Below, one piece after another: positions 3,563 to 9,222 of a stretch of DNA of 11,359 bases (within the stretch, counting starts at the first letter, position 1; each line of letters opens with the position of its first letter). Made by a program: the position numbers and the translations under genes. Under the pieces are notes generated by a model. That model searched no databases. It was not told the DNA's origin and worked only from the letters and a program-made list of their open reading frames with translations. This DNA is from Victivallales bacterium. Lineage in GTDB: Bacteria > Verrucomicrobiota > Lentisphaeria > Oligosphaerales > Oligosphaeraceae. The DNA lies in NCBI GenBank assembly GCA_017964325.1, contig JAGCSE010000025.1:1-11359 (forward strand), in the 5' to 3' direction.

Positions 3563-4345
<783 letters not shown>

Positions 4346-4393
4346 GTTCATTTTCCTTGTGAGTAGCAGATTTCTCAGTTGATTTTATTCCTT

Positions 4394-7171: not shown

Positions 7172-8191
7172 ATGAAATTCCTCAAATGGTTCAAAACACA
7201 GTGGAACAACAATCCGCTGTTCAGTACGACGCTCGCCCTGCTGGTCATGATCATCCTCCAGACGCTCGCCCTCGGCACCAATTACGATTCCTTTGGCGCC
7301 TGGTGGACGAATTTCTGCGTCAACTGGATCAACGTCCTGCGCAACAACGCATCCGTCGGCATCGTCTCCCTCGGCATGGCATTCATCATCATTTCAGGCG
7401 GCATCGACCTGGCAGTTGGCTCCACGCTCGCCATGACAGGCGCCTTCTTCCTCCTACTAACGGATAGTTCGGCTTCCGGTTGGCTGGGCGCCATGCACAT
7501 TACAGGCTGGCCCGCCTTCGCCATCGCCTTCGTTCTCGTCATCCTATTCGGCGCTCTGCTCGGAGCCCTCAACGGCGTACTTGTCGCCGACGGCGGCATC
7601 CCGCCGTTCATCGTCACGCTCGGTACGATGAAAGTCTTCCGTTCCGTGACGCAGTATTTCATGCAAGGCCGTTCACCTGTGTTTCCAACTGATTTTCTAG
7701 CCTTCGCAAGCCTCCGTTTCGGACGCTACATGGTCATGCCAATCCTCTACTGGCTTGTCATCGCCGCCCTCCTCTATGTCGTTTCCAAGAAGACGGTCTT
7801 TGGCAACCACGTCATTGCCGTCGGCTCCAACGAAAAGGCCGCGAAGCTGACGGGTATCAACGTAAAGGCCGTCAAACGTTGGGTCTATACGATTACCGGC
7901 GCACTCGTCGCCATGGCGACCATCATCAACATCAGCCGAATCGGCTCCATGGACTACGCCAACGCAGGAAGCGGCTATGAAATGGATGCCATCGCGGCCG
8001 TCATCGTCGGCGGCACCCGCATGGCCGGCGGCCGCGGCTCCATCATCGGCACAATGCTTGGCGTTCTTATCATAGGCGTTATGAATAACTTACTGAATCT
8101 CGTCGGCGTCAACCCCTTCCTTTGCGAAGCCTTCAAAGGCTTCATCGTCGTCGTCGCCGTGCTGATCCAGAAGAAAGAAGCCACCTCCTAA
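7172..8191 (+). CDS. Sugar ABC transporter permease (RbsC type, BPD_transp_2)
   Basis: This 339-residue integral inner-membrane protein forms the translocation path of the importer. It shows many hydrophobic segments, for example around residues 16-34, 61-75, 115-137, 187-204, 237-252, 292-311 and 322-332. Two family hallmarks are present: SGGIDLAVGS (75-84) and GGTRMAGGRGS (280-290), the latter in the region that contacts the ATPase. Length is slightly above E. coli RbsC. The start ATG has no evident Shine-Dalgarno site, and the 54-bp gap before it holds only a small inverted repeat. It is the last gene of the cluster; only one permease gene is present, so a homodimer is expected. Immediately after the TAA stop begins the 9-bp tandem repeat array that separates it from the convergent GH16 gene. 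Confidence 0.94.
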   Translation: MKFLKWFKTQWNNNPLFSTTLALLVMIILQTLALGTNYDSFGAWWTNFCVNWINVLRNNASVGIVSLGMAFIIISGGIDLAVGSTLAMTGAFFLLLTDSSASGWLGAMHITGWPAFAIAFVLVILFGALLGALNGVLVADGGIPPFIVTLGTMKVFRSVTQYFMQGRSPVFPTDFLAFASLRFGRYMVMPILYWLVIAALLYVVSKKTVFGNHVIAVGSNEKAAKLTGINVKAVKRWVYTITGALVAMATIINISRIGSMDYANAGSGYEMDAIAAVIVGGTRMAGGRGSIIGTMLGVLIIGVMNNLLNLVGVNPFLCEAFKGFIVVVAVLIQKKEATS

Positions 8192-8194
8192 AAA

Positions 8195-8306
8195 CTAGAG
8201 CTTCCAGCTCTTCTAGAGCTTCTAGAGCTTCTAGAGCCGCTAGAGCGCTAGAGCTTCTAGAGCTTCTAGAGCCGCTAGAGCTTCTAGAGCCGCTAGAGCT
8301 TCTAGA
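8195..8306. repeat. 9-bp tandem repeat array (CTAGAGCTT / CTAGAGCCG) filling the convergent gap
   Basis: Twelve head-to-tail units plus a five-base remnant. Most units are CTAGAGCTT (8195, 8213, 8222, 8248, 8257, 8275, 8293) or CTAGAGCCG (8231, 8266, 8284). Unit 2 is CCAGCTCTT, and unit 6 (8240-8247) has lost one base. The array starts four bases after the permease stop codon and ends inside the last codons of the convergent GH16 gene, whose TAG stop (8302-8304) is part of it. On the GH16 strand, seven successive TAG codons stay in frame because the unit is nine bases. Units 1 and 2 form a perfect six-base stem (8197-8202 with 8206-8211). Confidence 0.96.
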
Positions 8307-9222
8307 TTTCATCAAACACACGCACGTGATCCACTTCAAACCAGTCCGGCAGAACCGCTTGCGACAAAATCGGCGCAGGCGTCCCAAAGGGATGCCCCGC
8401 AGGGGCGGTGAAGCCTCCTCCACGGTAGCCATGGCATTCCGTGGAGACCAGAATGAACTGCTCCACTTCTGAAACCGGCCCGATGGACGTGCTTCCTTCC
8501 TTCAGCCACCGTTTGCCTCCTTCTGCGAACATCATATTCGCTTCCGCCGCCCGTTCCGGCGGCAGCACACGGCCGACGAGCCGTCCATCCGCATAGAAAT
8601 AATATCCGGCGGGACTCCAATCGACGCCGTAGTAATGCCATCCGTCCGCCGTCTCCTGATAGTCCCATTGGAAATGGCGTGAGCCATGGCAGTCCTTTCC
8701 ATAACCGCCCCAAATGTTTCCGCCGATGATCTTTCCTTCCGTGTGCTGCCGGTAGTTTTCCATGATGTCGCATTCGACGCCCGCAAAACGCGCATCTGGA
8801 TGCGAACCGACTCCCGGTGCCTGCAACCAGAAAGCAGCATGCCAGCCTGGGTTCTTCGGCAATTTGCAACGGATTTCATAATAGCCGTAGCGATGCATGA
8901 AACGCGGTGTTTCCATCTTGCCAAATGGCCAGAAACGCGGCGAATCCTTCGGAATATCATACGTCAGGGAACCGGTCTGAAGATGCGGCGAATAATAGTC
9001 GTCGCCCTTTTTGATGAGATGCAGCTTCAGATGGCTCTGCCCGTCAAGCTCCACGCCTTCCTCCGTGTACGTCTTGAAACGCTGCCCCCAGAAATTCAGG
9101 CGGAAGCCCCATTTGCTGCGGTCCAGTTCCGTCTCGTCGAATTCATCCTGCCAGACAAGTTTCCATGCCTTGCCTTCCGGCAGAAAACTGTCAGCGTGTC
9201 CTTCAACCGCATAATTCTGCAT
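8302..9222 (-). CDS. Glycoside hydrolase family 16 beta-glycanase, no signal peptide
   Basis: A 306-residue single-domain GH16 enzyme (laminarinase/agarase/porphyranase superfamily). The start of the fold is seen in WKLVWQDEFDETELDRSKW (20-38). The catalytic strand is VECDIMENY, with nucleophile Glu150, Asp152 and acid/base Glu155 in the ExDxxE spacing of the beta-bulge GH16 subgroups, all intact. GYYEIRCKLPKNPGWHAAFWLQ (113-134, key residues Glu116, Trp127 and Trp132) and WHYYGVDWSPAGYYFYADG (195-213) are typical neighbouring blocks. The start is well supported by AAGGAG five bases upstream. The protein has no signal peptide, which is unusual because most GH16 enzymes are secreted. It lies after the hisG terminator, so it probably needs its own promoter or read-through. 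The TAG stop is the first repeat unit of the adjoining tandem array. Polysaccharide target not determined. Confidence 0.9.
   Translation of the reverse strand: MQNYAVEGHADSFLPEGKAWKLVWQDEFDETELDRSKWGFRLNFWGQRFKTYTEEGVELDGQSHLKLHLIKKGDDYYSPHLQTGSLTYDIPKDSPRFWPFGKMETPRFMHRYGYYEIRCKLPKNPGWHAAFWLQAPGVGSHPDARFAGVECDIMENYRQHTEGKIIGGNIWGGYGKDCHGSRHFQWDYQETADGWHYYGVDWSPAGYYFYADGRLVGRVLPPERAAEANMMFAEGGKRWLKEGSTSIGPVSEVEQFILVSTECHGYRGGGFTAPAGHPFGTPAPILSQAVLPDWFEVDHVRVFDEI

Follow-up and report, generated by a model that had tools for sequence, protein, structure and literature searches.

What fills the gap between two convergent genes in a stretch of ordinary gene content, and why does it begin just past one stop codon and supply the other? 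The window, by which we mean the whole 11,359-nucleotide stretch of Victivallales DNA analysed here, encodes GH38, MazG, a sugar ABC transporter, GH16, HisG and phosphoribosyl-AMP cyclohydrolase. The 110-bp convergent gap between its permease and GH16 genes (8192-8301) consists almost wholly of CTAG-bearing units. A preliminary description had placed an array of 12 CTAG at 8195-8306, filling this gap and providing the GH16 stop codon; extent, coordinates and stop codon are all correct, the stop being the minus-strand TAG in the final CTAG. The features discussed below are as follows.

7172..8191, plus strand: sugar ABC transporter permease (BPD_transp_2)
8189..8191, plus strand: permease stop TAA; the array starts three bases further on
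8195..8306, no strand assigned: CTAG array, 12 CTAG, mostly 9-bp units CTAGAGCTT / CTAGAGCCG
8197..8211, minus strand: small hairpin then T-rich tail, formed from the odd CCAG unit; a terminator-like match on the GH16 strand only
8213..8287, no strand assigned: full-length fit to the CTGGA/TCCAG ladder model, scoring 42.0 bits on the plus strand and 36.2 on the minus strand
8302..8304, minus strand: GH16 stop TAG, within the array's last CTAG
8302..9222, minus strand: GH16 glycosyl hydrolase
3563..3596, no strand assigned: second array, CCACTAG heptamer (CTAGTGG on the MazG strand)
3587..4351, minus strand: MazG gene, with its TAG stop inside the heptamer array

The 12 CTAG of the GH16 gap lie within 111 bp, the first at 8195 and the last at 8302-8305, at successive steps of 18, 9, 9, 9, 8, 9, 9, 9, 9, 9 and 9 bp; the unit at 8204-8212 carries CCAG in place of CTAG. 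Tandem Repeats Finder (TRF) also reported super-units of 35 and 53 bp, which fit growth of the array by multi-unit blocks and so support the block duplication proposed in the preliminary description. Seven in-frame TAG on the GH16 strand, also described there, are present when the GH16 stop is counted, before an 8-bp unit shifts the frame; six come after the stop. There was no Rfam match at gathering score.

CTAG had been called rare elsewhere in the window, and it is: of 21 CTAG, 16 lie in two arrays and 5 outside both, where base composition predicts about 44 in total; 21 or more were reached in one of 200 dinucleotide-preserving shuffles. The second array, (CCACTAG)n at 3563-3596, had been overlooked and provides the stop codon of MazG. 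Adjacent spacers in period-7 CCACTAG arrays are identical, so these arrays need no explanation that distinguishes core from spacer.

The window comes from an uncultured member of the Lentisphaeria, of rumen origin and related to Oligosphaera. Its closest relatives, judged by HisG identity, are rumen MAG RUG12186 (L001; genome G001) at 99% and Victivallales MAG RGIG7794 (L002; genome G002) at 97%, followed by L003-L005 at 84-86% and Oligosphaera ethanolica (L015; genome G006) at 78%. CTAG arrays occur genome-wide in close relatives and are scarce in the rest of the class. Matches to a triple-CTAG pattern, of which one long array gives several, number 799 in G001, 345 in G002, 166 in G005, 1 in G006 and none in G003 or G004. 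In the GTDB family of G001, which includes O. ethanolica, 18 of 29 sampled genomes match, 16 of them with at least 16 matches. Across the class, 38 of 197 genomes match; 21 of the 38 are not of this family, most of them (16) with six or fewer matches, the highest counts there being 38 (G134), 18 (G157), 16 (G090), 16 (G121) and 10 (G072). In 400 kb of G001 we counted 198 CTAG against 1535 predicted by composition, 88 of them within 16 arrays. A single occurrence, with none at gene ends in relatives, would have refuted the preliminary reading; the arrays are instead genome-wide and stand at gene ends in relatives. Because G005 contigs C1, C9, C94, C103 and C106 start inside CTAG arrays, the repeats probably break assemblies and our array counts are probably lower bounds. 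We recognised no description of CTAG or CTGGA ladders in those parts of the open-licence PMC literature that we covered.

We also found a variable-spacer CTAG array on an IMG/VR contig (L227:2401-2458) similar to the arrays of O. ethanolica's family; the contig may belong to a virus infecting such hosts or may be DNA of the host itself. A viral origin of CTAG arrays was considered and rejected, since arrays on viral contigs are mostly of low variation and lie inside open frames of at least 150 codons (106 of 161 arrays, and 27 of 42 variable ones, among the matches listed). Five-core CTAG matches on viral contigs comprise at least 119 stretches at period 9 and 24 at period 8.

With genes called by our own script rather than a published tool, none of 35 CTAG arrays in stretches of G001, G002, G021, G017 and the window lies wholly within a called gene. 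The 23 arrays of G001, G002 and the window with both neighbours known divide into 14 in convergent, 8 in tandem and 1 in divergent gaps, against 22% convergent, 55% tandem and 23% divergent among intergenic bases (convergent excess, P = 8e-5; divergent deficit, P = 0.02). When two arrays in one gap are merged, 13 of 22 are convergent (P = 2e-4). Eight arrays of G021 and G017 (7 tandem, 1 divergent) are without this excess, so it is shown for the closest relatives only. Edge arrays were left out, one of G001 and one of G002 from the 23 and two of G021 from the 8.

Within arrays, the core is kept and the spacers are not. In 22 arrays of period 8 or 9 with at least four CTAG, 115 of 125 interior cores are intact (a larger set of 172 interior cores includes period-7 arrays), and 4 of the 22 have unbroken runs of 9-13 cores; of 422 positions compared between neighbouring spacers, 194 (46%) differ. 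A neutral simulation with the same detection left 66-74% of interior cores intact and gave at most one run of nine intact cores in over 2000 detected arrays. Slippage-driven filling of the gap, one role raised in the preliminary description, explains the changes in array length and leaves the kept core amid free spacers unexplained. A multi-site binding platform, also raised there, is favoured by the kept core, with the recognising factor itself a putative one.

In two relatives, G002 and G026, we identified a kindred design, which we call a ladder: typically four CTGGA cores, a loop and four TCCAG cores. CTGGA-N4 triples number 276 and 241 in G002, 209 and 200 in G026, and 29 and 26 in G001; the reversed control gave none in any of the three. 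When CTGG and CCAG were accepted as well as CTAG, arrays appeared whose left arm has CTGGA cores and whose right arm has TCCAG cores, at L160:4620, L167:19331 (with CTAG in its middle), L329:10578, its orthologue L330:12135, and L339:7835. Ladder arm order and polarity are fixed. By our own reading, the CTGGA run stood left of the TCCAG run, within 100 bp, in 14 of 14 cases among the matches listed; at 20 fetched loci, arrays holding each core twice or more were CTGGA-left in 14 cases, reversed in none and mixed in 2. The two counts are not independent, as the 20 loci were drawn from the matches listed (14 with a listed partner arm and 6 without). Arms of four plus four occur in 9 of 18 ladder rows, as do loops of 12-13; the rows represent 16 loci, L376 and L386 contributing two each. 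Odd CTGG/CCAG cores in CTAG-majority arrays mostly break the arm rule, 5 against and 2 for by our reading.

Ladders also lie at gene ends. A stop codon falls within 60 bp at 18 of 19 loci, and 12 of 15 ladders in tandem gaps are closer to the stop than to the start; unlike CTAG arrays, ladders occupy tandem gaps at 15 of the 19 loci and convergent gaps at 2. Called genes contain 4 of 22 CTGGA/TCCAG/CTAG arrays at the fetched loci, 2 of 42 arrays from the search that accepted CTGG and CCAG, and 3 of 19 ladder loci.

Conservation in ladders is confined to the cores. Spacers in hairpin register pair less often than with shuffled partners (0.39 versus 0.457, s.d. 0.029). For a model, we aligned seven ladders from the 16 loci and L388, one of them with one CTAG core, omitting L373, which MAFFT had shifted. 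The core pairs are invariant, with standard pairing in 97-100% of cells against 32-57% at spacer positions, and cores alone are conserved in ladder alignment A2. Tested for covariation, the seven aligned ladders gave structure scores no better than shuffled partners. A core that is invariant, rather than changing but complementary, points to recognition of its sequence.

A covariance model built from the seven ladders found the window array as its top match in 442,784 bases, at full length and with 42.0 bits (E = 1.5e-8), followed by the minus strand of the same array and then its orthologues in L002 and L001; a sequence-only ladder model gave the window array a partial match of 14.3 bits (E = 0.017). 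Since a palindromic core at 9-bp steps fits the ladder model by construction, the window match indicates compatibility. Two G021 arrays scored 40-47 bits, and G017 arrays weakly, with 20.6 and 16.6 bits. Up to E = 1 the model reported the L001 array and, among 16 CTAG arrays from stretches of G001, L098:7117 and L100:16308 alone; period-8 arrays do not fit it. Nearer to evidence of descent are the spacer words AACT, AGCT and AGCC, common by our reading to CTAG arrays and ladders, and one site occupied in G001 by a CTAG array and in G026 by a CTGGA ladder. The two kinds of repeat, CTAG arrays and CTGGA/TCCAG ladders, may be one element.

Comparison of orthologous sites revealed both persistence and change. 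The GH16 gap carries a CTAG array in all three assemblies compared, with 12 CTAG in the window, 9 in L001 and 6 in L002 and with related but different spacers; array length, which the preliminary description had proposed to compare between strains, does vary. L002 has a canonical hairpin with a T-run, separate from and beside its array; in L003 and L004 gene order differs at this site and there is no GH16 match. Eight gaps with a CTAG array in G001 were compared: an array of three or more CTAG persists at two of them in G002, and at two of the seven that could be mapped in G026. The L098:7117 and L100:16308 gaps hold a CTAG array in all three genomes, the period at L100 being 8 in G001 and mostly 9 in G002 and G026. 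In other gaps, different short-period families occupy the equivalent site in close relatives. Most arrays other than the GH16 one turn over fast.

Other repeats were seen at and near these sites. The coding end of MazG in L001 (16239-17051) and L002 (6189-6965) enters a GCTGAAA-type array giving TGA or TAA, so that the MazG stop is TAG, TGA or TAA depending on the local array and protein C-termini differ accordingly. Intergenic inserts with CACGAATGGACACGAATGAA-like repeats (L001:4976-5502, L002:884-1251) occupy different gaps in each and look like a dispersed element. A dispersed GC-rich palindrome, CGGGAGGGTCCCGCTCCTGCGGGAACG-like, is present in two copies per gap (L001:6691-6865, L001:17052-17187) and adjoins TTAGTGG-type or AGCTAAA-type arrays.

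Short periodic cores other than CTAG also occur in the family. GTCCC-N4 arrays have period 9, a non-palindromic core and, again, varied spacers; matches on both strands number 138 in G001, 87 in G006, 56 in G026, 36 in G017, 30 in G002, 8 in G004, 2 in G003 and 1 in G021, with a reversed control of 0 except in G017 (1) and G006 (16). We looked for a rule of orientation relative to genes among the G001 TRF arrays and by our reading found none consistent. At L106:14063-14145 and L130:6162-6271, in gaps called convergent, a GGGAC array is followed on its right by a GTCCC array whose spacers do not match its own; these pairs are the ladder design with another core. In O. ethanolica, L136:2774-3382 consists of period-9 GATC blocks with a GACCGATCA-like left arm and a TCCGATCCG-like right arm, which can pair but for single positions at regular intervals; there are 1277 GATC triples in G006 and 1381 in G016. 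The CTAG-free sisters G003 and G004 have nearly uniform AGGTCGGAC nonamer arrays instead (for example G003:C16:9838-10003), and AGGTC-N4 matches on both strands number 250 in G003 and 22 in G004. We rejected AGGTC-N4 in G003 as a ladder, as AGGTCGGAC is nearly uniform and has no opposite-strand partner among the matches listed.

To the opening question, the answer we favour, at roughly even chances, is that the window array is one copy of an intergenic repeat that is dispersed and lineage-specific, a REP-like 3'-end element with a palindromic core recognised by a factor. Its constant part is a short CTAG core every 8-9 bp, with the 4-5 intervening letters largely free. Because CTAG is palindromic, the array has two-fold symmetry and is able to fold back on itself; in the kindred element of G002 and G026 the core is divided into complementary halves, CTGGA and TCCAG. 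Copies are found close downstream of stop codons, and in a convergent gap one symmetric copy stands at the 3' ends of both genes. REP/REPIN elements are thought to be recognised as hairpin RNA or single-stranded DNA. Here a sequence-specific factor would most likely recognise the core on duplex DNA or on a hairpin of RNA or single-stranded DNA; cores would be kept because the proposed factor reads them, spacers would drift, and copy number would change by slippage and unequal exchange. Spread, 3'-end position, a kept core amid free spacers, the arm order and polarity of ladders, and turnover at orthologous sites are observed; this factor, its action on DNA or RNA, any benefit to the cell and the unity of arrays and ladders we infer. 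A more speculative extension, which we think possible but rather doubtful, is a class of fold-back repeats at gene 3' ends in which a ladder of cores pairs across two arms and spacers stay unpaired. Its core code would switch between lineages (CTAG; CTGGA/TCCAG; GGGAC/GTCCC; GATC with GAC/GTC in Oligosphaera) and be read by a dedicated putative factor co-evolving with the code.

Several other explanations must be weighed against a recognised core. The arrays could be neutral or selfish minisatellites resembling STRRs, which arise, grow by slippage and vanish in gene-end gaps, free there of coding and promoter constraint; core-keeping units would keep duplicating, giving the core a conserved look with no use to the cell. 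CTAG arrays are indeed one short-period intergenic family among several (TRF reported 120 arrays of period 4-20 in 420,870 bases of G001, 85 of them intergenic and 14 of these with CTAG), arrays of different families share one site in close relatives, and mere avoidance of genes and promoters would also lead to the observed positions. Against this account stand a core kept far beyond its spacers, the fixed arm order and polarity of ladders with their frequent four-plus-four design, and the CTAG arrays retained at the GH16, L098:7117 and L100:16308 gaps. Our search for a candidate recognising protein, covering TrpR and an IS630-type domain, found none; this, together with fast turnover, lack of covariation, breaks of the arm rule, poor folding of G017 arrays and ladders in tandem gaps, leads us to keep the neutral or selfish account as a real, if less than probable, alternative. 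Pairing alone might instead be selected, for a bidirectional transcription terminator or 3'-end RNA hairpin of convergent genes. Arrays fold well (mean z = -4.3 for 28 arrays, mononucleotide shuffles, plus strand) and lie at 3' ends; CTAG arrays, and by our reading many AGCT-containing units, also fold well in a column-permutation test that covered 153 intergenic arrays of period 6-20 and 28 bp or more. Of the GC-rich stem and direct T-run of an intrinsic terminator, the window array offers one match, at 8211-8197 on the minus strand, which is weak because the window holds 15 terminator-like matches against 12.6 expected. A terminator is nonetheless unlikely. L002 has its separate canonical hairpin, by our own reading the ladder flanks shown do not begin with a T-run, and pairing alone would permit compensatory core changes, of which the seven ladders contain none. 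Folding is not in excess among non-palindromic families: intergenic arrays without CTAG rank among the best-folding 5% in 14.8% of cases (n = 128) versus 13.3% of coding arrays (n = 75), for which reason we rejected RNA folding as a principle of all arrays. Two G017 arrays, with 11 and 12 CTAG, fold worse than with shuffled spacers.

The preliminary description had also proposed a transcription or translation insulator; as a stop-codon insulator, CTAG would be selected for presenting TAG on both strands. The TAG of CTAG is the stop of GH16, MazG and several G001 genes, and distinct intergenic units of period 7 show a mild excess of stop codons (19 of 21 versus 15.2 in shuffled units). Those of period 9 hold fewer than shuffled units do (14 of 31 versus 18.0), a 9-bp period closes one frame per strand only, and CTGGA/TCCAG and GTCCC cores contain no stop codon. 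We find no general support for stop codons as the selected feature, and consider insulation very improbable; anchoring on stop codons looks like a by-product, a boundary effect. Arrays would expand to a stop codon and not into the gene, and because growth would halt at the gene end, the TAG within CTAG would often serve as the stop. CTAG is also a target of IS630-type elements, and TrpR operators have CTAG half-sites 8 bp apart, so core and spacing would suit transposase target or footprint arrays, or repressor operators. The TrpR family (PF01371) occurs in 10 of 29 family genomes and, of the 16 that are array-rich, in G023 and G024 only; absent from 14, including G001 and G002, it was rejected. 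DDE_3 (PF13358) is likewise in 10 of 29 and, of the array-rich genomes, only in G001, G020 and G022; its absence from 13 of 16 led us to reject IS630 targets, and either origin is extremely improbable. An assembly artefact can be given next to no credence: the CTAG arrays seen are from metagenome assemblies, and several G005 contigs start inside arrays, but three assemblies have different arrays at the GH16 gap and the isolate genome of O. ethanolica carries GTCCC-N4 and period-9 GATC arrays.

Returning to the proposed REP-like element, its likeness to REP/REPIN elements is one of position and fold-back design. These are described as high-copy intergenic sequences between unidirectional and convergent genes, downstream of coding regions, with inverted units able to form hairpins and several families per genome (PMC3733652, PMC3116915). 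CTAG arrays and ladders are similarly high-copy, extragenic, and downstream of genes or between convergent or tandem genes; ladders have hairpin-capable inverted units, and CTAG arrays are palindromic by their core. REPs, as described there, are 20-40 bp palindromes with GTAG or CGTC tags and RAYT transposases for GTAG (PMC3733652, PMC3116915), whereas the elements here have short cores every 8-9 bp and free spacers. GGGNATC heptamers of Xanthomonas and Nostoc are also abundant intergenic tandem repeats near stop codons and under-represented between divergent ORFs, many lying within 50 bp of a stop codon or overlapping it; their 7-bp unit is nearly fixed and forms G-quadruplexes (PMC4692102), while here a 4-5 letter core alone is fixed. 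The TAACTGA repeats of Beggiatoaceae, Cyanobacteria and Bacteroidetes share dispersal as short tandem repeats, patchy taxonomy and turnover between relatives, and occur mixed with other heptamers; they are fixed heptamers, in Beggiatoa mostly just upstream of start codons (PMC4679880), unlike CTAG arrays. Stem-loop repeat families of bacterial genomes are mostly intergenic with a common predicted fold, and are defined by sequence-family models (PMC2267715); our arrays share mainly periodic cores, their spacers being too variable. CCACTAG arrays match the short fixed unit of about 7 bp of STRR-type repeats; CTAG arrays of period 8-9, with their 46% spacer difference, do not. A fixed small core with free spacers sets these arrays apart from known fixed-unit heptamer repeats.

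What appeared as an oddity of one gap becomes a family-wide element that follows testable rules: its core and arm polarity are fixed, its spacers are free and it lies at 3' ends. Since such arrays can provide stop codons and vary between strains, gene ends and protein C-termini next to them call for careful annotation. If a factor does read the core, the arrays would represent a new REP-like system in a group with few cultured members, one whose recognition could be read from its lineage-specific cores.
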